In this document: in pieces, positions 2,594-39,871 of the stretch
Layout of the letters: each line of letters begins with the position of its first letter
Numbering within the stretch: the stretch's first letter is position 1
From: Bacteroidetes bacterium GWF2_35_48
GTDB lineage: Bacteria; Bacteroidota; Bacteroidia; Bacteroidales; GWF2-35-48
Assembly: GCA_001769125.1 (NCBI GenBank)
Contig: MEOG01000004.1
Location: 1-42,743 of the forward strand
Length of the DNA stretch: 42,743 nucleotides
Reading direction: 5' to 3'
Program-made: the position numbers and the translations under genes
The notes under the pieces: model-generated
What the model was told of the DNA's origin: nothing
What the model saw: only the letters and a program-made list of their open reading frames with translations
Databases searched by the model: none

Positions 2594-2625
2594 AGTTATG
2601 TAATGTTAATGAATAAATACTTTTT

Positions 2626-2633
2626 CAAAAATA
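2626..2633 (-). promoter_or_regulatory. Putative -7 box of the amylase gene
   Basis: The minus strand reads TATTTTTG here, matching the Bacteroidota -7 consensus TAnnTTTG, about 33 bases before the amylase ATG. No convincing TTTG -33 element is at the usual 19-21 base distance, so this is a half match. Confidence 0.4.
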
Positions 2634-2696
2634 GTTATAAAATATTATTTTAGAAAGAAAGAATGATGTATGGAGAATTAGGAAATAAGAAAATCG

Positions 2697-2955
2697 GTAG
2701 GAATACAATAGGAATACAGTAGGAATACAATAGGAATACAGTAGAAATTCAATAGGAATACAGTAGAAATTCAATAGGAATACAGTAGAAATTCAATAGG
2801 AATACAGTAGAAATTCAATAGGAATACAGTAGAAATTCAATAGGAATTCGATAGGAACTCGATAGGAACTCAATAGGAACTCAATAGGAACTCAATAGGA
2901 ACTCAATAGGAACTCAATAGGAACTCAATAGGAACTCAATAGGAACTCAATTGAT
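2697..2955. repeat. 11-bp minisatellite with a 22-bp higher-order section
   Basis: About 23 copies of an 11-bp unit related to AGGAACTCAAT fill most of the 453-bp gap between the amylase start and the end of the upstream gene. There are three blocks. The first (to about 2740) alternates AGGAATACAAT and AGGAATACAGT. The middle (about 2741-2850) is a 22-bp dimer, AGAAATTCAAT plus AGGAATACAGT. The last (about 2850-2955) is nearly pure AGGAACTCAAT. The 11-bp period shifts the frame at every copy, so it is not coding. The rest of the gap holds only three ACAATTGTA palindromes and AT-rich DNA. Confidence 0.9.
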
Positions 2956-2967
2956 GTTCGATTGAAA

Positions 2968-3033
2968 TACAATTGTATGTCTACCGAATTAACAATTGTA
3001 CACTTATTGAACACCTATCGTAGCACAATTGTA
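2968..3033. repeat. Three copies of the palindromic ACAATTGTA motif
   Basis: ACAATTGTA occurs at 2969-2977, 2992-3000 and 3025-3033, just after the stop of the gene ending at 3047 and before the minisatellite. The core ACAATTGT is a perfect palindrome. It could be a protein-binding site cluster or another decayed tandem repeat. No function is evident. Confidence 0.4.
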
Positions 3034-23507: not shown

Positions 23508-24149
23508 TTAAGATTTGGTATATTTATGAGCAGTAGTTACAGCATCTGCCCAAAGTTCTTCAAGTTTATAAAAATCTCTATAGGGTGTTTGAAAAATATG
23601 TACAACCACATCAGCATAATCAAGAAGCACCCATTGTGCGTTTTCAAAGCCTTCTTTGTGCCAGATTTTCTCACGTAAATTTTTCAACACCTGATCTTCT
23701 ATATGATAAGCTATAGATTTTACCTGAACATCAGAATTGGCGCTGCACACGATAAAATACTTACATATAAAATTATTGAGTTTCGATAAATCTATAGATA
23801 CAATATTTTCTGCTTTTTTATCCATTGCAGCATTCACAATAGCATCTAAAAGCTGTAAAGAAGCAGTTTTTTTATCTTTTTTTAGAATCGTTTTTTTTGC
23901 AGCAACTTTTTTATCTACGGAATCTTTAATCGTTGTTTTTTTTACAACTGGTTTCTTAACAGCAGTTTTCTTAACAGCAGTTTTCTTAACAGCAGTTTTC
24001 TTAACAGCAGTTTTCTTAACAGCAGTTTTCTTTTCAACTATTTTTTTAGTGCCTGTCTTTTTAGTAGCAGGTTCTGATTTTTTCACACGTGTTGATTTAA
24101 CAGGTGCTTTATCTTTATCTGTTGTTACAATTTTCTTTTTAATAGCCAT
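23508..24149 (-). CDS. rsfS: Ribosome silencing factor RsfS with Lys/Ala-rich N-terminal extension
   Basis: RsfS (YbeB/Iojap) binds ribosomal protein uL14 and blocks subunit joining under starvation. The conserved domain is residues about 98-210: LLDAIVNAAMDKKAENIVSIDLS, FIVCSANSDVQVKSIAYHIED, WVLLDYADVVVHIFQTPYRDFYKLEELWADA. RsfS is usually 110-130 residues; here 213, because of an N-terminal tail of about 95 residues with five exact VKKTA units and related KK motifs, resembling histone H1-like tails. The units are encoded by a 15-bp repeat at 23955-24029. The tail could bind RNA or DNA or the ribosome. The gene follows lepA by 17 bases. Confidence 0.93.
   Translation of the reverse strand: MAIKKKIVTTDKDKAPVKSTRVKKSEPATKKTGTKKIVEKKTAVKKTAVKKTAVKKTAVKKTAVKKPVVKKTTIKDSVDKKVAAKKTILKKDKKTASLQLLDAIVNAAMDKKAENIVSIDLSKLNNFICKYFIVCSANSDVQVKSIAYHIEDQVLKNLREKIWHKEGFENAQWVLLDYADVVVHIFQTPYRDFYKLEELWADAVTTAHKYTKS
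23955..24029. repeat. Five-copy 15-bp tandem repeat inside rsfS
   Basis: Five consecutive exact copies of CTTAACAGCAGTTTT, each encoding a rotation of VKKTA on the minus strand, with decayed copies on both sides. The period is a multiple of three, so copy-number changes alter tail length without breaking the gene. Confidence 0.9.
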
Positions 24150-25954: not shown

Positions 25955-26164
25955 CTATTTCCAATATCAATGAGGTCTTAATTTGCTAAACCTCTGAAAA
26001 ATGAACGGCAAATATAATAAATAATACAATCTAAAAACCACTTTATGCATTTTTCATTAAAAGCCCTATATTAAAAGAAAACAGAGACCTTATGCCAGCA
26101 TACGAATAATTGAAAAATTGTTTAATCCGATTTTTATTTGTTTTTTTGCATAAAATCAAAGAAA

Positions 26165-28324
26165 ATGATAAAATTTCAAAATAAAAATTCATATAAAATT
26201 TACAATACATTACTCTTCATAGTTGCGGCAATACTGATTTTATCGGTTATGCCCAAGGGAGTAAAATTTCCCTATGAATACAAAAAAGGAATGCCATGGC
26301 TTCATAGTACTCTTGTTTCTCCCATGAATTTTCCCATTTATAAATCTGATGAAGACTTAAAAAATGAAACAGACAGTATCCAAAAAAACTTTGTGCTATA
26401 TTTTACGTTTGAAAATCAAACAATTATTGATCATTTAACCCTTTTCAGGAAAAAATTTGAAGTAAAATGGAATGAACATTTAAAAAAATATTTTCTGATA
26501 GACACGGAAGCCCAGCAAAATGGCGTAAATAAAAACGTAGAAAAATTAAACATTTTAAAAAACGATTACCTGAATTACTGCTCAAATCTCATTGAAGAAA
26601 CTTATAACAAAGGCATCATTGTATTGCCAAAAACAATCAAAAGCGATTCTCTGGCAAAAAAAACCATCTATGTTATCAAAAACAATATTGCAGAAGAATA
26701 TAAAATCAATGATTTTCTCGATATACAGACTGCCTATAATTTGATTGACAAAGCAACAAATAACAGGAAAGAACATAATTATTATAACGAAGCGTTTAAC
26801 ACTGGTTTTCTGGAAGAACTAAAGATAAAAGAATTTATAGCACCGAATATTTTTTATGATGAAGAAACTACAAAAAAAGTAATCACAAATCTTACAGAAA
26901 ATATTTCTCTGACACGTGGTATGATTGGTGAAGGAGAAAAAATTATTTCAAAAGGAGAAATCATTGATCACATCAAATTCAATATTTTAAATTCATTGAA
27001 AAAAGAATACGAAACCTTCACAACCAGTAATAAAAATTATTATTACATTTTTATTGGTCAGTTTTTATTGATCATGATTTCTTTATTTTCAGTTTTCATG
27101 TTCATCCATACCTTCAGAAACGATGTATTGCATGACAGCATAAAAACAGCCTTCATATTACTGTTAATTGTATTATTGATAACAATTGTCAGTTTTTTTC
27201 TTAAATACAATATTGTAAATCTCTATGTAATTCCGCTTGCAATTTTGCCCATTATACTTCGTACTTTTTATGGGACACGGCTTGCTTTATTTGTACATAC
27301 CATAACGATTCTTACAATAAGTTTTTTTGTGCCTAACGGTTACGAATTTTCGTTACTGCAAATTCTGGCAGGCGCTGCTGCATTATTCAGCCTTACAAGT
27401 GTTCAGCGAAGAGGTCAGCTTTTTCTTACGGCAATCATGATAATAATTACCTATTGTGTTTTATTCTTCGCTATTTCTATCATTCAGGAAGGAGACATTG
27501 CCAAAATTAATTATAAAACCTTTGCATGGTTTGCTGCAAACGGGTTATTGGTGCTTGCATCCTATCCCTTAATTTATATTTTTGAAAAAGCATTTGGATT
27601 TCTTTCAGATGTTACATTACTCGAACTGGCAGACCCGAATAGTAAAGTAATGAGAATGCTGGCTGAAAAAGCACCCGGAACATTTCAGCACGCACTTCAG
27701 GTCTCAAACCTTGTTGAAGAAGTAATGGTAAAAATAGGAGGCAACGCACTGCTTGCAAGAACAGGAGCTTTGTATCATGATATTGGAAAAATAGACATTC
27801 CACAATTTTTCATCGAAAATCAAGGTGTTGGAAAAAATCCACACGATGAACTTGATTTTGACAAAAGTGCTGAAATGATTATTAGCCATGTTAAAGCAGG
27901 TGTTAAGATTGCAGAACAAAACAACATTCCATCTCAAATAATTGACTTTATAAAAACGCATCACGGCAATACAAAAGTCCAGTATTTCTATCGTTCTTTT
28001 TTGAAAAAATATCCAGATAGAGATATTGAAACTGCAAAATTTACCTACACCGGACCTATTCCGATTTCAAAAGAAACCGCAGTTGTAATGATTTGCGATT
28101 CTGTTGAAGCAGCCTCAAGAAGCCTCAGAACTATTACAGAAGATTCTTTAAATAACCTTATTAACACAATCATCAATGATATCATTGCGAATAACCAACT
28201 CATTAATTCAGATATCACATTTAAAGACATTGCGAGTATTCGCGAAATTTTATTCCAGCAACTAAAAAATATTTACCATTCGAGAATTGAGTATCCGAGG
28301 TACGAGGAGATGACCATTATGTAG
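26165..28324 (+). CDS. pgpH: PgpH-type 7TM HD-domain phosphodiesterase (probable c-di-AMP hydrolase)
   Basis: Predicted to hydrolyse c-di-AMP to pApA. I use the ATG at 26165 (719 residues); a TTG at 26138 is in frame. Residue 15-30 is a membrane anchor, 45-290 the extracellular 7TMR-HDED domain, about 292-475 seven membrane helices, and 490-690 the cytosolic HD domain. Metal ligands are visible: His509, His538-Asp539 (YHDIGK), His575, His599-His600 (THHGN) and Asp645 (MICDSVEAA). The domain order is that of Listeria PgpH. Together with CdaA at 8044-8823 the window encodes both synthesis and breakdown of the messenger. Transcribed alone. The gene symbol is by homology of architecture. Confidence 0.9.
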   Translation: MIKFQNKNSYKIYNTLLFIVAAILILSVMPKGVKFPYEYKKGMPWLHSTLVSPMNFPIYKSDEDLKNETDSIQKNFVLYFTFENQTIIDHLTLFRKKFEVKWNEHLKKYFLIDTEAQQNGVNKNVEKLNILKNDYLNYCSNLIEETYNKGIIVLPKTIKSDSLAKKTIYVIKNNIAEEYKINDFLDIQTAYNLIDKATNNRKEHNYYNEAFNTGFLEELKIKEFIAPNIFYDEETTKKVITNLTENISLTRGMIGEGEKIISKGEIIDHIKFNILNSLKKEYETFTTSNKNYYYIFIGQFLLIMISLFSVFMFIHTFRNDVLHDSIKTAFILLLIVLLITIVSFFLKYNIVNLYVIPLAILPIILRTFYGTRLALFVHTITILTISFFVPNGYEFSLLQILAGAAALFSLTSVQRRGQLFLTAIMIIITYCVLFFAISIIQEGDIAKINYKTFAWFAANGLLVLASYPLIYIFEKAFGFLSDVTLLELADPNSKVMRMLAEKAPGTFQHALQVSNLVEEVMVKIGGNALLARTGALYHDIGKIDIPQFFIENQGVGKNPHDELDFDKSAEMIISHVKAGVKIAEQNNIPSQIIDFIKTHHGNTKVQYFYRSFLKKYPDRDIETAKFTYTGPIPISKETAVVMICDSVEAASRSLRTITEDSLNNLINTIINDIIANNQLINSDITFKDIASIREILFQQLKNIYHSRIEYPRYEEMTIM

Positions 28325-28331
28325 TGTTTGC

Positions 28332-28458
28332 AAGAAAACGCCAATTTCATCGTTACGCTTGACCTGAAAAGTAGTCATGTTCATTAGTACACTCCTGATT
28401 TTCAGGTCTTCGCAAGCCCTGCCTACCGGACAGGCAGGCTTGAACTTGACGTTTTCTT
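28332..28458. repeat. Nested three-stem inverted-repeat element after pgpH
   Basis: Outer arms AAGAAAACG (28332-28340) and CGTTTTCTT (28450-28458) enclose two further hairpins: GACCTGAAAA (28361-28370) with TTTTCAGGTC (28400-28409), and CAAGCCCTGCCT (about 28414-28425) with AGGCAGGCTTG (about 28432-28442), one base bulged. The last hairpin, with its CCTACCGGACAGG centre, resembles GC-rich palindromes I recall from other Bacteroidota intergenic regions. It lies in the convergent gap after pgpH and may also end transcription. The 68-codon minus-strand frame across it (28262-28468) is not a gene. Confidence 0.7.
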
Positions 28459-28528
28459 TATCAAACACATCGTTTATTGCTGACTCTAGATAATTTTCTA
28501 ATGGATTAAGGAGTAGGAATAGGATTTA

Positions 28529-28584
28529 GCAATCCTGTGAGGTATTGCAGGCTGAATCGTGCGATGGTTATCCTCACAGGTTTG
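28529..28584 (+). repeat. 56-bp palindromic element, copy 1
   Basis: Arms GCAATCCTGTGAGGTAT (28529-28545) and TATCCTCACAGGTTTG (28569-28584) around 23 bases. Two more copies, in the opposite orientation, are at 37299-37354 and 37413-37468. The preceding GGATTAAGGAGTAGG is also partly shared with copy 2, so the mobile unit may be longer on that side. Confidence 0.85.
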
Positions 28585-28606
28585 CGGGAATTGAAATAAA
28601 ATTCAA

Positions 28607-29617
28607 TCAACTCTGTCGAAAAAACTTAACCACCATTTGTGTGAATCCCTCAAAAGTTTCTTGTTTTAATTGCTGAATTATATCATCACAAAATTGAATA
28701 TCATTAATGAGTTCTGCTGTCTGTCCTGCAATCCATAGATTGTTGTAATTCCCGGGAAGTATAGATTTTTGCAAAAGTGTCATGTTTTTTTTCTGCAGGA
28801 TTTTTTTAAAATAAATTTTTGTAGCAGGATTTTTTGTGATTAATTTTTCGATCCAGTTTTGTTTCAGTCCGATTTTTTTCGCATAAGGTGTATTAATAAT
28901 AGAATTGGGCGTTCCTGAAATTCGTTCACTCAAAACAATATCTTCCATGCCGGCTTCAAGTATCGCTTTTTTATATTCTTCACTGACCTTACATTCGTGC
29001 GATGCAATAAATCGCGTACCCATGCTTATCGCCGATGCTCCAAGCGACAACATAGAAAGAATTCCTGTTCCGTTTGCAATACCTCCTGATGCAACCACAG
29101 GTATTTCAGGAAAATTTTCAATCAAAGCCGGAACAAGAACCTGCAAGGTATAAGGCCCAGCATGACCTCCTGCTCCCTGCCCTACCGCAATAAAACCATC
29201 ACATCCTGCATTAGCGCATTTTTTTGCATGCGTTAAATTCGTAACATCACAATATACTTTTGCTCCATAAGAATGTGCTTTTTCAATCACAATTGAAGGA
29301 TTTCCAAGTGAGGTAGTGAAAAAAGGAACTTTCAATCCAACACAAACTGCAAGTTGTTCTTCAAAAACAGGATTCGATTTCTGAACAATAATGTTCACAC
29401 CATAATTGCCTGACTGAAAATTTGTCTTATACGAATGAAGATTCGCTATAACATTTTTAAGCCCGTTACTATCATAGTTCATTGCGGGAAAAACTCCTGC
29501 AATTCCATTCCGTATAGCAGCTTTCATCATTTCCTCATTTGACACAAGGTACATGGGAGCCATCATGAGCGGAAAACTCAGATTGAGATGTTGCGTTATG
29601 TTTGTGGTTATGTTCAT
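28607..29617 (-). CDS. Nitronate monooxygenase / FabK-like flavoprotein
   Basis: An FMN-dependent TIM-barrel oxidoreductase of 336 residues. PLMMAPMYLVSN opens the barrel, GQGAGGHAG (147-154, candidate catalytic His152) and VVASGGIANGTGI (174-186) plus SMGTRF (198-203) form the flavin phosphate site. The family includes nitronate monooxygenases and the enoyl-ACP reductase FabK; the sequence alone does not settle which. It lies 17 bases after an enoyl-CoA hydratase gene on the same strand, which favours a role in acyl-chain metabolism, but this is inference. Confidence 0.85.
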   Translation of the reverse strand: MNITTNITQHLNLSFPLMMAPMYLVSNEEMMKAAIRNGIAGVFPAMNYDSNGLKNVIANLHSYKTNFQSGNYGVNIIVQKSNPVFEEQLAVCVGLKVPFFTTSLGNPSIVIEKAHSYGAKVYCDVTNLTHAKKCANAGCDGFIAVGQGAGGHAGPYTLQVLVPALIENFPEIPVVASGGIANGTGILSMLSLGASAISMGTRFIASHECKVSEEYKKAILEAGMEDIVLSERISGTPNSIINTPYAKKIGLKQNWIEKLITKNPATKIYFKKILQKKNMTLLQKSILPGNYNNLWIAGQTAELINDIQFCDDIIQQLKQETFEGFTQMVVKFFRQS

Positions 29618-29634
29618 AATACCTATTCCCTATC

Positions 29635-30393
29635 TTATTTTCTTTTATCTAAAAAAGCCTTTAACCCAATTTTTCCTTCATTTCCGACAAGCCGACCGAA
29701 AGCTTCTGCTTCCATTTTTAAGGCTGATGAAAGCTCTGTCTTTTGCCCTTTTATAACAACCTGTTTCAATTCACGAATACTTGTAGCAGGTCTTTTAATT
29801 AATTTTTCTGCTAAAAAAATTGCTTCATTAACGACATTTTCCGGCTTTGTTATTTGTTGCACGATTCCCATTTGCATGGCTCTATCAGCAGAAAAAGACT
29901 CACCTGTCATTAAATAATAAAACGCATTGTTTTTTCCTGCTATTCTTGAAAAAAGTTGTGTTCCTCCACCACCGGGAATAATGCCAAGAAGGCTTTCAGG
30001 CAGGGCAAACTGCGCATCATCGGCAGCAATACAGAAATCGCACCACATTATTAATTCGCAACCTCCACCCATTGCCAGACCGTTTACTGCTGCAATTACA
30101 GGGATTGGCAAGGTTTCAATTTTACTGAAAGAACCATGCACCAAACGACTCACTTCATAAGCCTGATTTTCTCCCATCAGCAACATTTCAGAAATATCTC
30201 CACCCGAAGCAAAAGCCTCATTATTGCCTGTAATAATTATTACCCGAACATCTTTTCGTGAAACAACTTCCTCAAGCAGACAATCTAAGTCGCGTATAAA
30301 CTGAACATTCATCGCATTTTTAACTTCAGGACGGTTAATTCGTGCGATTAATATTCCTTCTTTATATTCCGTTAAAATTGTTTTGTAAGGCAT
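29635..30393 (-). CDS. Enoyl-CoA hydratase/isomerase family protein
   Basis: A crotonase-fold enzyme of 252 residues. The oxyanion-hole regions are FASGGDI (61-67) and GLAMGGG (105-111). Both catalytic Glu residues of true hydratases are present: Glu113 (GGGCEL) and Glu133 (LPESLLGIIPGGGGT). It probably hydrates 2-enoyl-CoA during fatty acid or amino acid breakdown. It is first of a two-gene unit with the flavoprotein behind it. The exact chain-length or branched substrate is not predictable. Confidence 0.92.
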   Translation of the reverse strand: MPYKTILTEYKEGILIARINRPEVKNAMNVQFIRDLDCLLEEVVSRKDVRVIIITGNNEAFASGGDISEMLLMGENQAYEVSRLVHGSFSKIETLPIPVIAAVNGLAMGGGCELIMWCDFCIAADDAQFALPESLLGIIPGGGGTQLFSRIAGKNNAFYYLMTGESFSADRAMQMGIVQQITKPENVVNEAIFLAEKLIKRPATSIRELKQVVIKGQKTELSSALKMEAEAFGRLVGNEGKIGLKAFLDKRK

Positions 30394-30464
30394 ACTAATT
30401 TTTATTTCGGGCTAAATTAATATAAGCTGAGGAATTCACAAATTTATGTTTGAGGTATATCTGT

Positions 30465-30499
30465 AAAAAAAATGACCAGAAATTTTATCCCGGTCATTT
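30465..30499 (-). terminator. Terminator of the SprB-repeat protein gene
   Basis: On the minus strand AAATGACC (30499-30492) pairs with GGTCATTT (30477-30470) around 14 bases, followed by a T run. It lies 24 bases past the stop at 30523. Confidence 0.7.
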
Positions 30500-30522
30500 C
30501 AGATTATAGTAATTTGCTTTTT

Positions 30523-33500
30523 TTATTGCTTAATAATTTTCAAAACCTTATTGTGTTTTTTGTTAATTACACGAATAAAATAAGTTCCCTGTGAAAAATG
30601 AGCAATGTCAATCTTATTTTCAGCAGCGGAGTCTGATATTTTCAATAAATTTCTTCCATAAATATCAAAAATCTCTAATAAAGAAGCTAATTCACAATGA
30701 ACATAAATTTCACCGGTTGTGGGATTAGGAAAAATTCTCAAATCCATTAAACTTTCAATAGTTTTTGTTTGATTTACAAAATCAACGAATACAGTATTTG
30801 TTGCAAAGCAGCCCTGATTATCTACGACTGTAACGGTATAATTTCCCGGCAAAACATTTATTAAATCTTCTGAAGCCTGATTATTACTCCATAGAAAATG
30901 ATACGGGGCAGTACCTCCTGAAACAGTAATATAAATCGCGCCATCATTCATACTTGCTCCTGATGCATTCATAACCGAATCATTTATTATTATTGCTGGA
31001 GGTTCTGCAATGGAAAAGCTTGTAACATCAGAACAAGCATGTGCGTCTGTAAAAGTTAAAGTAAAAATTCCAGCATGTAAATTGGAAATACTGCTTGTAG
31101 TGTCAGATGTAGACCATATATATGAATAAGGATACGTGCCTCCTGCAGTGCTGAGTAAAATTGCGCCATCGCTTCCACCGTTGCAGGATACATGCATACT
31201 ATTTGCGGTATGATAAACAATATCCGGCTCATTAACTGTGATGCTAATTGATTTACTGCAATTATTTGCATCAAGCAACAAAAAAGTATAAATATCTGCA
31301 TTCAGGTTAGAATATGTATAGGGGAGCATAAATGAAAAACCTGAAAATTGAAGCGAATAGGGAGCTGTTCCACCGCTTGCAGAAAATGCGATACTGCCAT
31401 TGTTCCCTCCAAAGCACAAATTGTCTGTAATGTCATACAATGGTTGTAGTTCATCGGGTTGTAAAACTAAAACTGTTCCTGTGCCTATACAACCGGCATA
31501 ATCGGTAACAACCACACTATGCATTCCGGCTGGCAAACCTGTTATTGTTTCATTTGTACTGCCATTAGACCACAAAAGCTGATAGGGCTGAACTCCACCC
31601 GAAACAATTACATCAGCACTTCCGGTACTGTCGCCATAACATGTTGTTACAGGCGTTGCACTTAAAACCAAGGAAGGGCCATCTATGTTATTTATGGCTA
31701 CAATAGCAGTTTTTACACATTGATTATTGTCTGTTATCTGTACCTGATATGCTCCCGCAGTAAGATTTAAAGCAGTATCATTCGTTTGTTGCAATACATC
31801 ATTCCACAATATAAAATAAGGAGCAATTCCGCCAGTGATAGCAACGGTTGCATACCCGTCACCTGCGCTGCAATGAGCATCGGCTTTATTTGTTGTTAGG
31901 ATAATTTCTGAAGGTTCATTTATTATAATAGTATCATACAAAAAACAATTGTTTGTATCGCGAACCGTAAGACTGTAAGAGCCGGCAGTAATTGAATTCA
32001 GCGATGAACTTAACGAACCATCAGACCAGGCAAAAGAATAAGGCATAGAACCTCCTGTAACCTGTGGGATAATATTGCCGGTAGCAGTTCCATAACAAAG
32101 TGGATGCGATACAGTATATTCAACAGCTAAAGACTCAGGTTCTGTAATTGTAACTCCGGTAAAGATAAAACAACCGTTTGCGTCTATTGCCTTAAGTCCT
32201 AAATAACCCGAACATAAATTGGTTAATACAGGCGAATTCTCTGCATTAAGATACGTGTAAGGAGGCGTACCTCCCGAAACATTAATTATCGCCATCCCTG
32301 CACATTCTCCATGACATTTATTATTTACCTGACTAACCGTATAGGATAAAGGAGCCGGTACGTATATAGAATGGGAAACAGAAGATGTGCAATTATTTTT
32401 TGAAACAGTTAGTTGTATTGTATGCGTTCCGGGAGTATACCATGCAACATTGTAGGGACCGAAATCGATTCCTGAATTAATAATAGCACCGTCAAAATTC
32501 CAGCTATATGTAGAACCTGATGGAGCAGAGCCTGTAAAATTAATATTGGAAGAAATACCAAAACAACTTATTGGAGTAAAATCAAACTCAGCATTGGTTT
32601 GTGGAGTGAACGTTATTTGTACGATATCGCTAAACACACATGATTGCTCGGAATTATAAGTTTCTGTCCAGATAAAGGTGTAGACTCCATAAGCTGTAAC
32701 ACTAACATTTGAATTGTAAGCAGAAGGATTACTGAAAGAAGCATTTCCGGGATTTCCGGAAGCAAGTGTCCACACACCTGTGTTTTGCAAATGATTTTCT
32801 GCATGAAGTAAATAAGACATTCCACAAACATCATCATCTATTCCTGCATTAGGGTAAGGCATGGAGCAACACGGACCTGTATTTGGGTTAACAGCAACAA
32901 TAAAAGAAGTATCATAATCACAACCAAAATTATCAACCACATGCAGGTTGTAAATTTGATTTCCCAAACTTGTGGGTATTGCTGTACCAGAGCCGTTAGA
33001 CTGTGAAACAATTCCTCCCGAGGAACCTGAAGTCCAGTAAAAATCTGCAGGATTGTAGGTATTTGTATATGAAAACTGCGGAGGAACAATATCTGAATTA
33101 AAATTTAAGCTCCACCAAAAAATGTAACCGTTATCTGAGCCTATATTATCTTCAACATGAATAGTCCAATTGCCATTTAGAACACAACCTAAAAGATCTG
33201 TAAAAGAACCTGTAGTGGCATAATTCCCTGCAGGAGCTGTTGTACCGCCCATAACAGGCAGAGGAACAGTTGCAGTTGGAGTCCAACAATAGGTTGCTCC
33301 AACTCCAGGAGCTGTATTTGAATCAATATCAATAGGCTGACCGAAATAAGTTGAACCATACCCATTGGGATAAGTAAGAATATTCAGATACTGACCACTT
33401 GGGCAGATCAACCAGATTGTAAGGTCTCCTATATATGAATGTTCAATATTCAAACAAACAGAAGCTACATCAGTAATACTGCTTATCGTCTGATCAGGTA

Positions 33501-34443
33501 AAAAATGCGAATTAGTAATAGTTGTTTCTATAGGATGCCCCTGACCGTCTGGCAGATAAGTAAGACCCGCTACCATGGTGTCAACAATATGAGTCCATGT
33601 ATTTTCAGAAAACATTCCTGCTTCCATCAATACAGAACTTCCAAGACAAATAGTATCTGGATAAATGTATGAATTTTGAAAATTTGGTTCAGCAGAAACT
33701 AATATCAAAATACAAGCAAAATTGCTGTTCGTACAAAAATTCTGATCGGTTCCACGAACAATAACATTATAAGCTCCAACAGGCCATGTATGGGTTGCCA
33801 GGGTAATTCCGGTTCCGGTTAAAGGCAAAGAACCATCGCCAAACTCCCAGTGGAATGAAGTAGTTGCATCAGATTGGGCATAATTTGTACCAGATGTAGG
33901 ATAAGAACCTGTAACGTTAAGCGTTAAAGGTGTATTCTGGCAGATACGGATGGTATCGCCATTATAAAAAGGAGTACTTGGGTTATCAATTGTAATGTTG
34001 AAAGGCTGACAGGGAAATGTACAACTGATTAAAGCAACCCAACCTGGATTTGTAACAGAACCATCAGAAGTCCATTTAATAGTAAGGCAACCATCCGTAG
34101 ATGAAGTTATAACCTGACCGATAATAATAGCCGGATTAACACCTTCTGCCTGAACCAATAAATTTCCTGTAGTATTAGGTCCATCGTAAATATAAAGATG
34201 GTCGCAGCATTGTTCGCTGGTAAAGCTGGTAAATGTTAATGAAATTTGTGACCCGGGCAAATCAGAACAAAAAGTACGAATAAAACTTTCATTATTATTA
34301 TATGAGCCTGACTCGCCTCCGGAATCATAAAATGTACCACTGCAAGTATTTACTGTTGCGGCATTTGACATATTGTAGGTTTGTGCATACCCTGCAACAC
34401 AAAAAAATAAAAAGAGCAAAGCAGAAGAATAAAATTGTTTCAT
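30523..34443 (-). CDS. Large T9SS surface protein with CUB, PKD, P-domain and seven SprB repeats
   Basis: A 1306-residue cell-surface protein. In order: signal peptide (1-20), CUB-like domain (about 24-145, with EQCCDHLYIYDGPNTTG), PKD-like domain (about 165-250, WEFGDGS), proprotein-convertase P domain (about 308-450, SHSYIGDLTIWLICPSG style), a second PKD-like region (about 615-695), and seven SprB repeats between about 702 and 1215. Each repeat has a C-x-G start, a GG-x-x-PY core and an LWSNG or WSDG turn. The T9SS sorting domain closes it (LRIFPNPTTGEIYVH, GTYFIRVI). SprB-type repeats occur in gliding adhesins, so adhesion is likely. There is no protease domain. Confidence 0.9.
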   Translation of the reverse strand: MKQFYSSALLFLFFCVAGYAQTYNMSNAATVNTCSGTFYDSGGESGSYNNNESFIRTFCSDLPGSQISLTFTSFTSEQCCDHLYIYDGPNTTGNLLVQAEGVNPAIIIGQVITSSTDGCLTIKWTSDGSVTNPGWVALISCTFPCQPFNITIDNPSTPFYNGDTIRICQNTPLTLNVTGSYPTSGTNYAQSDATTSFHWEFGDGSLPLTGTGITLATHTWPVGAYNVIVRGTDQNFCTNSNFACILILVSAEPNFQNSYIYPDTICLGSSVLMEAGMFSENTWTHIVDTMVAGLTYLPDGQGHPIETTITNSHFLPDQTISSITDVASVCLNIEHSYIGDLTIWLICPSGQYLNILTYPNGYGSTYFGQPIDIDSNTAPGVGATYCWTPTATVPLPVMGGTTAPAGNYATTGSFTDLLGCVLNGNWTIHVEDNIGSDNGYIFWWSLNFNSDIVPPQFSYTNTYNPADFYWTSGSSGGIVSQSNGSGTAIPTSLGNQIYNLHVVDNFGCDYDTSFIVAVNPNTGPCCSMPYPNAGIDDDVCGMSYLLHAENHLQNTGVWTLASGNPGNASFSNPSAYNSNVSVTAYGVYTFIWTETYNSEQSCVFSDIVQITFTPQTNAEFDFTPISCFGISSNINFTGSAPSGSTYSWNFDGAIINSGIDFGPYNVAWYTPGTHTIQLTVSKNNCTSSVSHSIYVPAPLSYTVSQVNNKCHGECAGMAIINVSGGTPPYTYLNAENSPVLTNLCSGYLGLKAIDANGCFIFTGVTITEPESLAVEYTVSHPLCYGTATGNIIPQVTGGSMPYSFAWSDGSLSSSLNSITAGSYSLTVRDTNNCFLYDTIIINEPSEIILTTNKADAHCSAGDGYATVAITGGIAPYFILWNDVLQQTNDTALNLTAGAYQVQITDNNQCVKTAIVAINNIDGPSLVLSATPVTTCYGDSTGSADVIVSGGVQPYQLLWSNGSTNETITGLPAGMHSVVVTDYAGCIGTGTVLVLQPDELQPLYDITDNLCFGGNNGSIAFSASGGTAPYSLQFSGFSFMLPYTYSNLNADIYTFLLLDANNCSKSISITVNEPDIVYHTANSMHVSCNGGSDGAILLSTAGGTYPYSYIWSTSDTTSSISNLHAGIFTLTFTDAHACSDVTSFSIAEPPAIIINDSVMNASGASMNDGAIYITVSGGTAPYHFLWSNNQASEDLINVLPGNYTVTVVDNQGCFATNTVFVDFVNQTKTIESLMDLRIFPNPTTGEIYVHCELASLLEIFDIYGRNLLKISDSAAENKIDIAHFSQGTYFIRVINKKHNKVLKIIKQ

Positions 34444-34467
34444 AGGTTAATGTTTTCTATTTAGACA

Positions 34468-34475
34468 CAAAAATA
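34468..34475 (-). promoter_or_regulatory. Putative -7 box of the SprB-repeat protein gene
   Basis: The minus strand reads TATTTTTG here, 24 bases before the ATG. The -33 region has no clear TTTG. A separate promoter would uncouple this gene from the GWxTD gene 190 bases upstream. Confidence 0.35.
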
Positions 34476-34633
34476 TACAAAATAGTTGTATTGAGCCTTG
34501 GAAAAGTAACTAAAAATTAACCCGATTTTTCAGGTGGGAATAAAACAATTTCTCCGATATGCTTTATACAATGCTTTTTGAAGTGGACTCAATATTAAAT
34601 TTGTAAGATACGAAAAGCAAAGAAATAAAAAAC

Positions 34634-36094
34634 CTACTTTTTCATCCTCCCATCAATAGACGTGTTTGAGGTTCCTTCTGTTCCCTGAATAGAATTCGGA
34701 ATTTGCAATCCATCGTGGCGACTGAATAATTCATTTTCCCATTTGCTGTTCTGTATTTCTCCTTTCAAATCCGAATGAAGCAAACGATAGGATTCTGTAA
34801 CAAGGTCGGGATTATAAAATACAAACTGCACATTTGCCTGACCTTTTAATGTGTGATATAGCCATATTTCATTGGGATAAGCAACCGGATCGTGCTTGGT
34901 TTCAGAAATTTGATTAGGAGAGCCATATTGCAGGTACACTCTTCCTCTTTCGCTTTCATAACCTTTATCAATAGGCGTTTTAAATAACCTATTTACAAGG
35001 TCGACCTGCTTCTTGTAATTTTCCCATTCGGTTTGTGGATCTCCAAAATTACGGTTTTCCCAAAATGTTAAAAAATATTTTTGCATATAAATTAAAGTGT
35101 CCTTTTTGAAAAGATTGGCTGCATGTCTTTTTTCAGGTTCGCTTGAAATCGGGTGTAGTGAATTAATGTAATCTTTAATTGTATCTAAATTTGTGATACT
35201 GGCAACAAAAGAATTACTAATATCAGTTACAATGTAATCATCTTTTTGTTTTTTCTGAATCATTTTGCTTCTTTGGAAAAAAACTTTTTTTGATTGTAGC
35301 AATTTATTTTCTTTATTGATAATTTCAAAAACCAGATTATAATTTCCGGAACCCAATTCATTAATATCAAATTCCGCAAGAACAACATTTACTTCCGATG
35401 GTTTCATTTTTTTAAATTTGCTGTACTCATTCAATAGTCTTTTCTTTGATGCAGTTTCAATAAAATACTTTAATAAAAATTCTTCCCCATTTTGAAATAC
35501 ATTCTTTGCATTATAAATCTCTGTATAAAAGCTAAGTTTATTAATATTTTCAGGGAAAAAATCTGAAACATAGGGATACAAATCGAAATTATTTTTTGTA
35601 ATCATAGAAGGCGAGGTGCTTGCTTCATATTTCTCGAGAAGCTGAATCCCAGAAAAACATACTTCATTTTCAGGAAAATTAATAGTAAGAATATCTCTAT
35701 ACGTGAAGCCCTCTTCGGTCGAATTTTCGTCCTGCACTATAAGCTCAAAATTATAAATTCCTTGCTTCAGAGGAATTCTTTGCTGGTCAATAAAATTTGG
35801 AAGATTACTTAACGTATCATCTACTTCGGGACTTAATAAATTGTATTTATTAAAAGTTATAACTTTTCCTTCCTGCTTAAAAAGCATTGTTACCTGAATG
35901 GATGCCTGAAATTTATTGTTTGCATTTTTCTTATAAAAAACACTTTTCCCAATGGCAGTCATGTATGTTTCAAGAAAAGCTTCCTGACCCGGAATTTTAA
36001 AAGGAGATGACTGAAAATATACCTGAAGTTTTTTCCCTGCAAAAATCATATTTGCGGCAAAAACGAATAAAAGCAGAATATAATATTTTTTCAT
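34634..36094 (-). CDS. GWxTD domain-containing secreted protein
   Basis: A 486-residue exported protein (signal peptide 1-19). The C-terminal part, from about residue 310, is the GWxTD domain: a W/F-E-N motif (LTFWENRNFGDPQTEWENY), RGRVYLQYGSPNQI, and PNEIWLYHTLKGQANVQFVFYN. The N-terminal 300 residues form beta-sandwich-like stretches found with this domain in Bacteroidota. The molecular function of GWxTD proteins is not established; they are periplasmic or outer-membrane associated. In the name-giving motif the Gly-Trp-x-Thr-Asp is not preserved here. A TAccTTTG box lies 25 bases upstream. Confidence 0.82.
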   Translation of the reverse strand: MKKYYILLLFVFAANMIFAGKKLQVYFQSSPFKIPGQEAFLETYMTAIGKSVFYKKNANNKFQASIQVTMLFKQEGKVITFNKYNLLSPEVDDTLSNLPNFIDQQRIPLKQGIYNFELIVQDENSTEEGFTYRDILTINFPENEVCFSGIQLLEKYEASTSPSMITKNNFDLYPYVSDFFPENINKLSFYTEIYNAKNVFQNGEEFLLKYFIETASKKRLLNEYSKFKKMKPSEVNVVLAEFDINELGSGNYNLVFEIINKENKLLQSKKVFFQRSKMIQKKQKDDYIVTDISNSFVASITNLDTIKDYINSLHPISSEPEKRHAANLFKKDTLIYMQKYFLTFWENRNFGDPQTEWENYKKQVDLVNRLFKTPIDKGYESERGRVYLQYGSPNQISETKHDPVAYPNEIWLYHTLKGQANVQFVFYNPDLVTESYRLLHSDLKGEIQNSKWENELFSRHDGLQIPNSIQGTEGTSNTSIDGRMKK

Positions 36095-36118
36095 AATCGT
36101 ATTGTATTATTGAGAGTT

Positions 36119-36126
36119 CAAAGGTA
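36119..36126 (-). promoter_or_regulatory. Putative -7 box of the GWxTD gene
   Basis: The minus strand reads TACCTTTG, a full match to TAnnTTTG, 24 bases before the ATG. No clear -33 element is present. Confidence 0.4.
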
Positions 36127-36207
36127 CAAAATTTTCTTTCTGATAATATGACTAAAGATTTCTATTTTACCCCTATTTAATTTTATAATTTACTTAACAT
36201 TTAAGGA

Positions 36208-36302
36208 GCTTGCAGGTTGCAGGTTGCAGTTTTCCTCATAACAGATATCAGATTGACTCAAAAAACGCAACAACCATAACTAGCAACCTGTAACCTGCAA
36301 CC
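36208..36302. repeat. Inverted repeat with tandem TTGCAGG arms
   Basis: The left arm carries TTGCAGG tandemly (36208-36229). The right arm GCAACCTGTAACCTGCAACC (36283-36302) is its reverse complement with two mismatches in 20. The loop is about 53 bases. It lies between two genes on the minus strand and could form a long hairpin or be another mobile intergenic element. Confidence 0.6.
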
Positions 36303-36340
36303 GTATTGGTAATCTTTATAACATTTTACTATTGGAATAA

Positions 36341-37135
36341 CTATCTCTTCATAATTTTTCTAATCACATCTTTAAGTTCATTAAAAATATTTTTATTGGA
36401 AGAGATGATTTCCTCGCCGAAAATATAATTATTTGTACCCTGAAAATCGGCATTAACACCGCCGGCTCTTTCAACAATAAATGCTCCGGCAGCAACATCC
36501 CATGGGTTCAAACCGTATTCATAAAATCCTTCAATCCTACCACAGGCAACATAAACCAAATCTGTAGCCGCAGAACCCAAACGCCTCAAACCATGAGAAT
36601 GCCTCATAAAATAATCAAGGGTTTTCATGAAATTATCAATATGGCTGTAGTCATGATACGGAAATCCGGTTGCCAGAAGCGAGCTATCCACTTTGTCAAT
36701 TTCTGAAACAAAAATTTTTAAATCATTTAAAAAAGCAGGACTTTCTTTCCATGCATAAAAACATTCATTGAGGCTAACTTCGTAAACTACACCGATGACA
36801 ATATCATCTCCTTCCTGCAATGCTATGCTTACAGCCCATGGCGATAAACCATGTATATAATTGGTAGTACCATCAAGCGGGTCAATAATCCAATTATACA
36901 ATTCTTCTTTTTTATCAGAAGTTCCTTCTTCTGCAATAAAACCTGATTCAGGCAAAAGCTTGCTTAATGCAGAAACAATCATCTCTTCCGATTTTTTGTC
37001 TACATAAGTAACAAAATTATGTACGCCCTTCGATTCAATTTTTGAAGCATTAATATTGCCTCTTTGTTCTTTTTGAAATTTTCCTGCCTCACGTGCAATA
37101 TCACACACCTGGAGGCATAGTTTCTGGTAATTCAT
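36341..37135 (-). CDS. Inositol monophosphatase family protein
   Basis: A Mg2+-dependent, Li+-sensitive-type phosphatase of 264 residues. Metal ligands are visible: Glu69-Glu70 (AEEGT), Asp85 and Asp88 (DPLDGTTNY), and Asp213 (NPWDVAAG). The family includes inositol-1-phosphatases (SuhB), histidinol-phosphatases and 3'-phosphoadenosine phosphatases. The WAVSIAL context and length fit the SuhB/IMPase branch best. The gene stands alone between repeat-rich gaps. The true substrate is not predictable here. Confidence 0.92.
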   Translation of the reverse strand: MNYQKLCLQVCDIAREAGKFQKEQRGNINASKIESKGVHNFVTYVDKKSEEMIVSALSKLLPESGFIAEEGTSDKKEELYNWIIDPLDGTTNYIHGLSPWAVSIALQEGDDIVIGVVYEVSLNECFYAWKESPAFLNDLKIFVSEIDKVDSSLLATGFPYHDYSHIDNFMKTLDYFMRHSHGLRRLGSAATDLVYVACGRIEGFYEYGLNPWDVAAGAFIVERAGGVNADFQGTNNYIFGEEIISSNKNIFNELKDVIRKIMKR

Positions 37136-37181
37136 TTTATAAATATAATTTATTCCTTAATCCAATTGGACTGTAATTTTA

Positions 37182-37225
37182 AATCGCTCCACCTGTGCTG
37201 AGCGAAGTCGAAGTATGGAGCGATT
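37182..37225. repeat. Inverted-repeat element AATCGCTCCA / TGGAGCGATT
   Basis: Perfect 10-base arms at 37182-37191 and 37216-37225 around a 24-base centre containing CTGAGCGAAGTCGAAGTA. The centre is related to the element at 23399-23474. It opens the 347-base gap between the IMPase and mtaB genes, which otherwise contains two 56-bp palindromes and AT-rich CCTAAT-type runs. Confidence 0.65.
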
Positions 37226-37298
37226 CTACAATTCCTAATTCCCAATTCTTAATTCTACTCCTAAATCCTTAATCTATTTTTTTCCTTTCTTATTCCCA

Positions 37299-37354
37299 CA
37301 AACCTGTGAGGATAGCCTCCACTCTTGCCTTCTCGAAATACCTCACAGGATTGC
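37299..37354 (-). repeat. 56-bp palindromic element, copy 2
   Basis: CAAACCTGTGAGGATA (37299-37314), 23 variable bases, then ATACCTCACAGGATTGC (37338-37354). It is in opposite orientation to copy 1 at 28529-28584. The open frame across copies 2 and 3 (37261-37473, minus) is a translated repeat (GGYPHR twice), not a gene. Confidence 0.85.
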
Positions 37355-37412
37355 TTACGATCCTTAATCCTACTATTACTCCTTAATTCAATATTTATTT
37401 CTCTTATCACCA

Positions 37413-37468
37413 TAATCCTGTGAGGATATCCTCCACACAAGCTTGCCCGAGATACCTCACAGGATTGC
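37413..37468 (-). repeat. 56-bp palindromic element, copy 3
   Basis: TAATCCTGTGAGGATA (37413-37428), 23 variable bases, then ATACCTCACAGGATTGC (37452-37468). It ends 14 bases before the mtaB stop codon. Same orientation as copy 2 and 114 bases from it. Confidence 0.85.
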
Positions 37469-37482
37469 ATCATATCCTCATT

Positions 37483-38769
37483 CTATTTAACAAAATCAAT
37501 TTTCATCGTATTTCTATCAGTCAAGCCTGTTAACCTCACTTTCTTAATTTCATTTGCAAGAGAAGCATTGTAATCTGTTTCAACTTTTATGTAATTTTCG
37601 GTGTAGCCGTACATTTTCCCTTTGTCGTTAAAATCTTCAAAAAGGACGAAAGTAGTTTTACCAATACCGGATTTATAAAATTTCTTCAATTTATTTTCCG
37701 ATAGAGTTAATAATCGCTGACTACGGCTTTTCTTTTCGCCTACAGATACTTTCATTTCAAAACCTGTTGCCCTCGTGTTATCTCTTTCGGAATAAGAAAA
37801 CACATGCAGTTCAGAAAAATCAATATTTGATATAAAATTATAAGAATCTTCAAAATCATCTTCCGTTTCTCCGGAAACACCCACAATTACATCAATTCCA
37901 ATAAACGCATCGGGAAGGTTTTTTCGTATTCGCGCAATACGTTCCCGGAATTTAACAGTATCATATCTTCGACCCATTAATTGCAGAATTTTATCAGAAC
38001 CGGACTGCAGGGGAATATGAAAATGTGGCATGAATTTACCGGATTCTGCAACAAAATCAATAATCTCATCAGTAAGTAAATTAGGCTCTACAGAGGATAT
38101 TCGAAACCGCTCAATACCCTCTACATTTTCAAGCGCCCTGATCAGACCGAGTAAACTTTCATCAGTCCCCTTCCCAAAATCGCCAAGATTGATACCTGTG
38201 AGAATAATTTCTTTCATCCCCTTTTCAGCAATTTCATACGCAATACGGACGCACTGATCAATAGTTCCGCTTCTGCTCTTCCCTCTTGCTAAAGGAACAG
38301 TACAATAAGCGCAAAAATAGTCGCAACCATCCTGCACTTTAAAAAAAGAACGGGTTCGGTCGCCGGAAGAATAAGTAGGATAAAACTCGTTAATAATTCT
38401 CGCATCCGAAGTCTGCACAAGTTTTTTCCCTGTATGTGCCCGAACATATTCAAGCAATCTGAATTTTTCTTTCTGGTCGAGAATTATATCCACACCCTCA
38501 ATTTTATCAATCTGTCCGGGTTTTAATTGCGCGTAACAGCCTACAACCGCAACGATAGCAAATGGAGATGTTTTTACGGCTTTTTTAATAGCCTGCCTGC
38601 ATTTTTTATCTGCTGCCTCAGTAACAGTACAAGTGTTTATTATAACAACATCGCTCGGTTCACCGAATTCTACACGCTCAAATCCATTCCCGAAAAATAA
38701 TCGGGAGATGGAAGAAGACTCTGAAAAATTAAGCTTGCAGCCTAGTGTATATATCGCAAATTTTTTCAT
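37483..38769 (-). CDS. mtaB: tRNA N6-threonylcarbamoyladenosine (t6A37) methylthiotransferase MtaB
   Basis: Converts t6A37 in tRNAs to ms2t6A37 using radical SAM chemistry. I start at the ATG at 38769 (428 residues); the frame runs 21 codons further up, but MKKFAIYTLGCKLNFSES is the family's normal start. The UPF0004 domain supplies the auxiliary-cluster Cys11, Cys47 and Cys78. The radical SAM triad is Cys149-x3-Cys153-x2-Cys156 (DGCDYFCAYCTVP). A C-terminal TRAM domain ends the protein. The GCKLN start separates it from MiaB (GCQMN) and RimO. Confidence 0.95.
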   Translation of the reverse strand: MKKFAIYTLGCKLNFSESSSISRLFFGNGFERVEFGEPSDVVIINTCTVTEAADKKCRQAIKKAVKTSPFAIVAVVGCYAQLKPGQIDKIEGVDIILDQKEKFRLLEYVRAHTGKKLVQTSDARIINEFYPTYSSGDRTRSFFKVQDGCDYFCAYCTVPLARGKSRSGTIDQCVRIAYEIAEKGMKEIILTGINLGDFGKGTDESLLGLIRALENVEGIERFRISSVEPNLLTDEIIDFVAESGKFMPHFHIPLQSGSDKILQLMGRRYDTVKFRERIARIRKNLPDAFIGIDVIVGVSGETEDDFEDSYNFISNIDFSELHVFSYSERDNTRATGFEMKVSVGEKKSRSQRLLTLSENKLKKFYKSGIGKTTFVLFEDFNDKGKMYGYTENYIKVETDYNASLANEIKKVRLTGLTDRNTMKIDFVK

Positions 38770-38847
38770 TGATAAAAAGAAAAAGCAAAGGTAAAAATTG
38801 TAAGCTGTGAAAAAAATTTGATTCTGAAACAAAAAATAAGTTCATTT

Positions 38848-38880
38848 ATTGCGAAAACAAATTCATTTTTTCTATTTTTG
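38848..38880 (+). promoter_or_regulatory. Putative promoter of the 33-residue Lys-rich protein gene
   Basis: ATTG at 38848-38851, 21 bases, then TATTTTTG at 38873-38880. The -7 box is a full match; the -33 box is approximate. The ATG follows 46 bases later. Confidence 0.45.
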
Positions 38881-38926
38881 AGAGTTCAAAAAATTGTGTT
38901 TGTACAACAATATAAAACCTACAATT

Positions 38927-39028
38927 ATGGCAAAGTCTAAAGATGTAAAAAAAGAAACCAAAAAAGTTCCTGCAAAAAGCTTGAAGGAAAAAAGATTAGA
39001 AAAGAAAGAAAAGAAAGCAAACAAGTAG
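38927..39028 (+). CDS. Small Lys-rich protein, 33 residues
   Basis: An ATG at 38927 opens 33 codons: MAKSKDVKKETKKVPAKS, then a Lys/Glu-rich helix ending KKEKKANK. Sixteen residues are Lys. I recall very similar short Lys-rich proteins with the MxKSKDVKKE start across Bacteroidota, but no function. A TAttTTTG promoter lies upstream and a very strong hairpin follows, which supports a real transcript. It may bind nucleic acid or the ribosome. It is divergent from mtaB and convergent with the next gene. Confidence 0.65.
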   Translation: MAKSKDVKKETKKVPAKSLKEKRLEKKEKKANK

Positions 39029-39036
39029 TCTTTCTA

Positions 39037-39088
39037 CTGTTTAAACAAAAAAGCAGGCTGAAATCAGTCTGCTTTTTTGTTTAAACAG
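39037..39088. terminator. Bidirectional terminator hairpin
   Basis: Two 25-base arms (39037-39061 and 39064-39088) are inverted repeats with one G-T mismatch around a two-base centre. Each begins or ends with CTGTTTAAAC, and the A6/T6 runs flank a GCAGRCTGA stem, giving terminators on both strands. It sits between the convergent genes ending at 39028 and 39137. Confidence 0.85.
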
Positions 39089-39136
39089 AACTTTATTTAA
39101 TAAATTTAAATCAAGCAAAATGCTTTTTTCGTGACA

Positions 39137-39871
39137 TCACTTAATAATACTTTTTCTTTTTCCGCTAAAATCGGGACAGGCAGGTTCTTTATGTTTTTTC
39201 TTTTTCTTTACATTACCTTGAGTCGTTTCTCTGTATAGGAAAGAATTCTGTTCAAAAAAATCATTCTCGTCTTCAAAGAGATATTTTGCCTTGTACTCTT
39301 CCTGATTTTCTTTTTGATTGTCTTTCTGTTCGTCTGTTTTTACTACTTCAGAATTATTTTTTTGCTGGTTTTGCAGAGCAGACTTTTCTGAGTCATATCT
39401 GATAACAATGCCATGAAAAAAAGTACGGGTTTGTTTATCATTTCTGCAATCGGTCTGTAATAAGAGCCTCCAGCTTATTTCTTTGTTATTTAAAGAAGGG
39501 TCTAAACGAAAAAGTTCTTTAAGCCGGCTCGCCAGCAAAACATCATAATTGGTAATCCAGTCATTTTTAAAACGAGGATATTTTGTAAAGACAATCGTTA
39601 TCTCTATAACTTTCTTTCCTTTCTTAATTTTTGTCCACTCATCCCCGTTTTTCAATAATGCGCTTGCATAGCCATTTTCGAGAACTAATTTCCCAGCTTC
39701 GCTTTTCCCCCTGAAACGACTTATTTCATTATGTGCAAATATTTGCTCATAATCGCCTCTGAATTGCGCAGGATTGTCGAGCATATCCTGATTAAACTGA
39801 ACAGCAGAAATAAGTCCTCCGGATTGAGCAGTAATAAAACATAATAACAATATGGGGAAAATATATTTCAC
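39137..39871 (-). CDS. Exported protein of unknown function
   Basis: Encodes 244 residues from a GTG start. GTG is preferred because MKYIFPILLLCFITAQSGG right after it is a signal peptide and no ATG is closer. The folded part (about 25-170) contains NPAQFRGDYEQIFAHNEISRFRG, KKVIEITIVFTKYPRF, and a LLQTDCRND stretch; I do not recognise the family. The tail (about 170-244) is Lys/Glu/Asn-rich and ends with KKKKKHKEPACPDFSGKRKS, probably disordered. It starts 38 bases after the M28 peptidase gene on the same strand, so both may be co-transcribed. Confidence 0.75.
   Translation of the reverse strand: MKYIFPILLLCFITAQSGGLISAVQFNQDMLDNPAQFRGDYEQIFAHNEISRFRGKSEAGKLVLENGYASALLKNGDEWTKIKKGKKVIEITIVFTKYPRFKNDWITNYDVLLASRLKELFRLDPSLNNKEISWRLLLQTDCRNDKQTRTFFHGIVIRYDSEKSALQNQQKNNSEVVKTDEQKDNQKENQEEYKAKYLFEDENDFFEQNSFLYRETTQGNVKKKKKHKEPACPDFSGKRKSIIK

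Follow-up and report, generated by a model that had tools for sequence, protein, structure and literature searches.

Introduction

Repetitive extragenic palindromes (REPs) are usually treated as DNA-level repeats without direction. Here we analyze a short hairpin element that is present three times in a 42,743-nt stretch of DNA from Bacteroidetes bacterium GWF2_35_48 (GenBank assembly GCA_001769125.1, contig MEOG01000004.1; this whole stretch is called the window), that resembles REPs, and whose dispersed copies lie mostly on the coding strand. The closest described system is that of REP/REPIN sequences and the TnpA_REP proteins, or REP-associated tyrosine transposases (RAYTs), including the Bacteroidetes-type subclasses 2.4 and 2.6 (PMC6006769, here and below for the portions consulted). 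The element has in common with this system an intergenic, multicopy hairpin that flanks a RAYT gene in both orientations, and most RAYT loci of the associated clade encode both NH[FIV]H and Y[IV]HxNP. Like REPs, which are hairpins of 21 to 65 nt, it is mostly extragenic and has many copies. Unlike known REPs, it has no GT[AG]G 0 to 2 nt 5' of the hairpin, has a 29-nt loop with a duplicated core, is mostly transcription-sense when dispersed, and lacks a detected cognate RAYT in the GWF2_35_48 genome.

Other intergenic repeats also offer comparisons. To our knowledge, ERIC repeats have no RAYT, and E. coli REPs presumably differ from the element in sequence and foot. As far as the consulted portions of the sources go, ribosome stalling is reported for E. 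coli REPs that lie no more than 15 nt from a stop codon (PMC12306157), and ERIC repeats of Yersinia are intergenic, are transcribed with their neighbors, and affect mRNA in an orientation-dependent manner (PMC2229807); both are precedents for RNA-level effects. In E. coli, as here, the hairpin stands shortly behind stop codons, and a coding-strand bias was not met in the same portion of PMC12306157. ERIC repeats, at 127 bp (PMC2759123), are longer than the element and of another sequence. In pneumococcus, SPRITE is located close to gene 3' ends and BOX varies by tandem modules; both are unlike the element in sequence and size (PMC3049150, in the portion consulted). No description of these palindromes was met in the open PMC literature, with the supplements of PMC6006769 outside the scope.

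Results

A dispersed hairpin with a twin loop core

The first-pass annotation of the window had reported three palindromes with common arms and an interior of exactly 23 nt. This was borne out: the arms CCTGTGAGG and CCTCACAGG span 47 nt from arm to arm in all three copies, and the 23 nt lie inside the longer arms used in that annotation. The exact 9-mer arms occur in the window in these three pairs only, all paired, with 0 pairs in 200 shuffled windows. The genome-wide arm search and covariance model that had been proposed were then informative. The 5.98-Mb GWF2_35_48 genome contains 54 exact arm pairs spaced 10 to 40 nt (reversed-pattern control, 0), and covariance model R1, built from 48 of 50 copies (L030 and one identical copy excluded), returned 127 rows at an E value of ≤0.01. 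From 158 model rows, 86 copies were chosen by hand, the remainder being antisense echoes and tandem-array fragments; the genome thus holds approximately 86 elements across 70 intergenic regions. These include weak copies (L030 and L157 to L160), with the near-identical L159 and L160 on two contigs counted as two. One copy is inside a weak open reading frame (ORF) call and a few touch ORF ends; the others are extragenic.

The consensus is GCAAT-CCTGTGAGG-TAT-Y-GCGGGNNRGC-NN-GTGCGNNRGC-TAT-CCTCACAGG-TTTGCGGG. In most copies, GCAA and TTGC extend the 9-bp stem across a T.T mismatch, and the loop core consists of a 10-mer, GYGSGNNRGC, duplicated with a 2-nt spacer. The interior is therefore not free in sequence, as the three window copies, too few to bring out the consensus, had been taken to indicate. 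Arm divergence from the consensus across the 86 copies was 1.6% (5') and 5.0% (3', each insert counted as one change), and interior divergence averaged 22% in 37 copies. Five copies folded as single-stranded DNA were more stable than their shuffles (z scores of −3.3 to −5.7).

The claim of a fixed interior length held in part. Between the 9-nt arms, 76 of the 86 copies could be parsed, with a peak at 29 nt (41 copies), which is equivalent to the 23 nt reported earlier, but also with interiors of 27 nt (21 copies), 28 nt (11 copies), and 26 nt (3 copies); eight copies carry a 12-nt or 20- to 21-nt insert within the 3' arm. Total lengths of the 50 exact-arm copies taken with flanks were 47 nt (27 copies), 45 nt (12 copies), 46 nt (8 copies), and 44 nt (3 copies). 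Spacing is constrained, not rigidly, at 26 to 29 nt, or more with inserts; neither widely varying interiors nor low-complexity arms were found genome-wide. Interiors from the same region are scarcely more alike (mean identity of 0.71 for nine pairs) than interiors overall (0.675 across all 666 pairs), which argues that most copies are not recent tandem duplicates.

Dispersed copies lie on the coding strand

Element direction was compared with that of flanking genes, using our own codon-likelihood gene caller. Among the 43 regions of the GWF2_35_48 genome between codirectional genes, the element was on the coding strand in 38 and on the opposite strand in 5 (p = 2.5e-7); the remaining regions were divergent (14), convergent (12), or had a single neighbor (one). 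The direction of L030 was undecided (34.7 versus 34.4 bits), and without it the count is 37/42. The same bias was present in the metagenome-assembled genome (MAG) JALSSR01 (G264), which belongs to another Bacteroidales family: 15 of 16 codirectional regions had the element on the coding strand (p = 5e-4), and the others were divergent (3), convergent (2), or had one neighbor (6). This count used 57 of 74 rows, with 11 at a RAYT locus and 6 partial rows excluded. Pooled, 53 of 59 regions were in the coding sense.

Strand agreement, examined for 46 elements with longer stretches, was 0.76 to 0.80 for the nearest genes and 0.35 to 0.55 at ranks six to eight, a decay that points to local transcription and gives no support to replication strand as the chief determinant of orientation. 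Purine tracts of the GWF2_35_48 genome, used as a control, gave 9 same versus 6 opposite, or 2 versus 3, while the element scored by the same method gave 20 versus 2. A second palindromic family (described below) was informative in 2 regions only. The first copy of a region lies a median of 28.5 nt past the upstream stop codon in the GWF2_35_48 genome, and for 29 of 38 regions there, as for 11 of 15 in JALSSR01, the upstream gene is the closer neighbor of the cluster.

Sense direction and short distance to stop codons would also be expected of an immobile, host-made RNA element at 3' ends or between cistrons (a terminator, stabilizer, or protein site), to which RAYT proximity would be secondary. 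Maintenance of stem pairing through changes (below) also fits such an element, as do two matches elsewhere in the phylum (L254 and L260) that are short-loop CCTNNNAGG hairpins followed by T runs. However, the hairpins of the GWF2_35_48 genome are followed by TTTG or TTTGCGGG without a T run, unlike an intrinsic terminator, and both the linkage to RAYT genes and the sporadic distribution described below argue against this explanation, which we regard as unlikely.

The element flanks RAYT genes in two other MAGs

The first-pass annotation had suggested a REP-like unit moved by a transposase that reads only the arms, and a search for such a gene. The first half of that suggestion is now the best-supported guess. 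On contig JAUVIX010000098 of the MAG JAUVIX01 (L320), a RAYT gene split by a frame change has copies upstream (+, +, −) and downstream (+, −), as read by eye. On contig C171 of JALSSR01 (L334), an intact RAYT gene (open frame of 262 amino acids [aa], approximately 204 from the first likely Met) encodes a protein 79% identical over 129 aa to the JAUVIX01 RAYT piece used as query, and has copies of both orientations around it, three on the upstream side and eight on the downstream side. The copies at this locus were located with a second model, R2, which was itself trained partly on JALSSR01 copies and was used for coordinates only. Inverted pairs of the BIME/REPIN type occur beside the RAYTs only; dispersed clusters in JALSSR01 are direct, and none is mixed. 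The GWF2_35_48 genome yielded no RAYT accompanied by these repeats; Pfam Y1_Tnp has 10 matches there, and the arms occur at 0 of the 9 loci examined.

The JALSSR01 RAYT matched NCBIfam REP_Tyr_transpos (E value of 6e-17; 61.9 bits, below the cutoff of 80) and, weakly, E. coli TnpA_REP 4er8 (E value of 0.007). It is missed by PF01797, and the two L320 RAYT pieces have no Pfam match; an earlier conclusion from PF01797 searches that no RAYT carries these arms was thus overturned, since the Pfam model misses this clade. Relatives of the JAUVIX01 and JALSSR01 RAYTs were present in 123 of 393 genomes of the order (E value of ≤1e-10). Of 30 loci fetched from this clade, 25 had both NH[FIV]H and Y[IV]HxNP in one frame, and the median HuH-Tyr distance of 82 residues equals the figure given for subclass 2.6 in the consulted part of PMC6006769. 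Thirteen of the 30 loci contained CCTNNNAGG palindromes, compared with none of the control loci (25 other Y1_Tnp loci and 11 reverse-transcriptase loci) and none when the 30 were shuffled 20 times. The control Y1_Tnp loci were L214 to L238, at least two of which (L226 and L232) are distantly related to the RAYT clade; L016 to L021 of the GWF2_35_48 genome were outside the comparison. Some of the palindromes, at L336, L353, L354, and L358, lie within the RAYT frame, a trait of subclass 2.4 in the same part of PMC6006769.

Two other routes of mobility were considered. JALSSR01 contains no reverse transcriptases, and retro-mobility is therefore unlikely. Short, multicopy, intergenic inverted repeats could also be an ordinary miniature inverted-repeat transposable element (MITE), a nonautonomous remnant of a DDE insertion sequence with the arms as terminal inverted repeats. 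This is very improbable: no target duplication was seen by eye in the flanks listed, which offered no clean empty site for comparison, the right flank TTTGC outside the arms is conserved, and 17 clusters of recurring neighbor ORFs, inspected by eye, included no transposase, a RAYT being found instead.

Three side observations concern these loci. The Y1 transposase genes of the GWF2_35_48 genome (L017 to L021 and L023) mostly have repeats or palindromes in their flanks, which are gene specific (e.g., GCACTCCGTAGGAGTGC or CAAGATGTTCCACATCTTG). At L226, on JALSSR01 contig C173, a RAYT-like gene lies directly between a RuvC_III-domain gene (cas9-like) and cas1. L320, labeled Chlorobiota, has an ABC-transporter and repeat locus as in the Bacteroidales MAGs JAOZLR01 and JALSSR01, which indicates transfer or a binning error.

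The loop core is conserved while the arms change

Alignment A2 comprised 41 hand-picked copies: 19 from the GWF2_35_48 genome, 17 from JALSSR01, 1 from JACREX01 (G001, a genus mate of GWF2_35_48), and 4 from G013. Stem cells were paired in 98.9% of cases, and in 19 cells both sides had changed, versus 5.8 in shuffles (0 of 500 as high) and 0 to 1 in slid versions. At one stem position, 16 of the 41 rows have a U.G pair when read on the sense strand. Base pairs within the loop gave weak hints only (C16-G21 of the core) and are not claimed, and wobble-keeping changes in the 3' arms exceeded expectation by too narrow a margin to be of use.

The 22-nt core inside the stem is conserved between two Bacteroidales families, and 27 of 28 parsed JALSSR01 interiors are 29 nt long with the same core, while the arms vary between lineages. 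Since the core is conserved while the arms change, the second half of the earlier suggestion, a transposase reading only the arms, does not fit. The same observation bears on a DNA-level site for a chromosomal protein contacting two half-sites at a set distance. The narrow length peak and the near-invariant arms within the GWF2_35_48 genome would suit such a site, but arms that vary while the loop core stays do not, and a strand that follows local transcription is needless for a dyad-symmetric DNA site; we consider this reading highly unlikely.

Occurrence in related genomes is sporadic

Exact arms were found in 6 of 393 genomes of the order, including GWF2_35_48, and three of the other five have an unlike interior by eye. 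R1 matched 5 of the 393 (E value of ≤1e-4), again including GWF2_35_48. JALSSR01 had 59 model rows, whereas its congeners G331, G172, and G068 had 0 and G392 had 3, in repeats of other sequence. G013 has a single tandem array. JACREX01 has few copies (a count of 2 enters the comparison with GWF2_35_48): a clear one on C120, with C123 and C168 holding weaker matches. When the arms were left partly free, the pattern gave 15 stretches in five MAGs of a named-genome collection (JALSSR01, JACREX01, JAOZLR01, JAOZOC01, and JAUVIX01). Across the phylum, R2 matched 23 of 395 genomes, including GWF2_35_48, with most readable matches being simpler, short-loop CCTNNNAGG palindromes. IMG/VR viral contigs gave 0 matches, as did a search for the GWF2_35_48 arms in a general genome-contig collection from which near relatives may have been left out.

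GWF2_35_48 and JACREX01 share a lepB-like operon in which the element, sense oriented in each, occupies a different gene junction: the former has it between two lepB-like genes, and the latter has it between the second of these and the following gene (names by eye). Neither genome has a copy at the other's place. Together with the patchy counts in JALSSR01 and its congeners and the copies flanking RAYT genes in both orientations, these positions argue against the immobile host RNA element. Tandem-repeat slippage accounts for some local arrays (L058 and L065), not for dispersal, and integron attC and CRISPR readings were dropped on inspection. Two copies (L068 in G013 and L104 in JALSSR01) lie near HicB-like (in JALSSR01 also HicA) toxin-antitoxin genes; these are two cases only.

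The window copies and their surroundings

The three copies and their neighboring genes (gene names by eye) are as follows.

26138 to 28324, forward strand: gene upstream of copy 1, HD-domain membrane protein
28529 to 28584, forward strand: copy 1, outer stem, 9-bp stem (28534-28542 pairs with 28572-28580), and 29-nt interior with twin core; covariance-model span 28526-28594, 80.3 bits; convergent genes on both sides
28607 to 29617, reverse strand: gene convergent towards copy 1, nitronate-monooxygenase-like
36341 to 37135, reverse strand: gene downstream of copies 3 and 2, inositol-monophosphatase-like
37299 to 37354, reverse strand: copy 2, 47-nt type, arms 37303-37311 and 37341-37349; model span 37289-37357, 83.4 bits; second copy of one intergenic region, on the strand of both flanking genes
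37413 to 37468, reverse strand: copy 3, 47-nt type, arms 37417-37425 and 37455-37463; model span 37403-37471, 71.2 bits; 19 nt past the stop codon of the upstream gene, on the strand of both flanking genes
37483 to 38832, reverse strand: gene upstream of copies 3 and 2, methylthiotransferase-like

An Rfam scan of window positions 26000 to 39500 (E value up to 1) gave four rows, all below the gathering score and none overlapping the elements. A second palindromic family, CCTGCC..TTGACGCAG..GGCAGG, is present at 28418 to 28440 and at several other loci of the genome; it and purine tracts of the type GGATTAAGGAGTAGG share intergenic regions with the element, and the 12- to 21-nt inserts of the 3' arm look like this family by eye. 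Elsewhere in the window, an 11-bp tandem repeat of the AATAGGAATAC / AATAGGAACTC type runs for approximately 36 units at 2622 to 3015 between two reverse-strand ORFs, and a ribosome-silencing-factor-like ORF (by eye) at 23508 to 24149 includes, close to the N terminus, a tandem KKTAVKK stretch.

Discussion

We conclude, with a rough probability of 0.75, that these hairpins are REP-type elements and substrates of a RAYT, persisting mainly where they are transcribed in sense. Linkage in two MAGs and the known behavior of the family indicate that a RAYT probably mobilized them. What is new is their direction, namely, the coding-strand bias of the dispersed copies. Dispersed copies are sense biased while copies beside the RAYT are in both orientations, a contrast suggestive of RNA-level selection on copies once inserted; the direction bias likewise suggests a hairpin that functions, or undergoes filtering, in its RNA form.

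Several observations weigh against this conclusion. With respect to the transposase, no RAYT of this clade was found at an E value of ≤1e-10 in the GWF2_35_48 genome (98% complete), JACREX01, or G013, and the nearest RAYT among the GWF2_35_48 stretches examined (L023, 29% identity) is flanked by another palindrome. Copies beside the JALSSR01 RAYT are partly a shorter variant (42 to 44 nt) of the dispersed 47-nt form. GT[AG]G is absent from the hairpin foot, which is GCAAT in the GWF2_35_48 genome, and, by eye, from the CCTNNNAGG palindrome foot contexts at nine RAYT loci; GTAG is only sporadic, by eye, in the purine tract farther upstream. No exact pair of filled and empty insertion sites was found, and we infer mobility from linkage. 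With respect to RNA, the stem changes in A2 reflect few lineage events: both sides changed in 3 of 9 stem pairs, a figure reached by 87 of 500 shuffles, and the count of pair types was not above shuffles (110 of 500 as high). Five regions of the GWF2_35_48 genome and one of JALSSR01 are oriented opposite to their genes, and the strand carrying the element has a slightly positive GC skew (28/46; p = 0.027), such that replication strand may contribute a small share.

If the hairpins are indeed RAYT-mobilized REPs, known TnpA_REP chemistry would have the RAYT fold the element as single-stranded DNA, cut at its foot, and seed copies elsewhere. Judging from orientation, seeded copies would survive mainly in sense, close behind stop codons, and the mRNA would thereby bear a hairpin in its 3' or intercistronic part. 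There it might protect the upstream message, cause ribosomes to stall, or recruit a factor via the twin core. The GWF2_35_48 genome would have retained its approximately 86 copies after an apparent loss of the RAYT that spread them. More tentatively, and with doubt on our part, the element may be a directional REP, with the twin 10-nt core, as a proposed site of RNA binding, serving as a recognition motif and the mostly sense copies forming a genome-wide 3'-untranslated-region regulon made from a transposase substrate and kept after transposase loss.

The CCTNNNAGG palindromes of several Bacteroidota genomes are now tied to one RAYT clade. Two expansions, in different families and with different stems, have the same loop core and a strong coding-strand bias, which raises the question of whether REP copies are retained for an RNA function.

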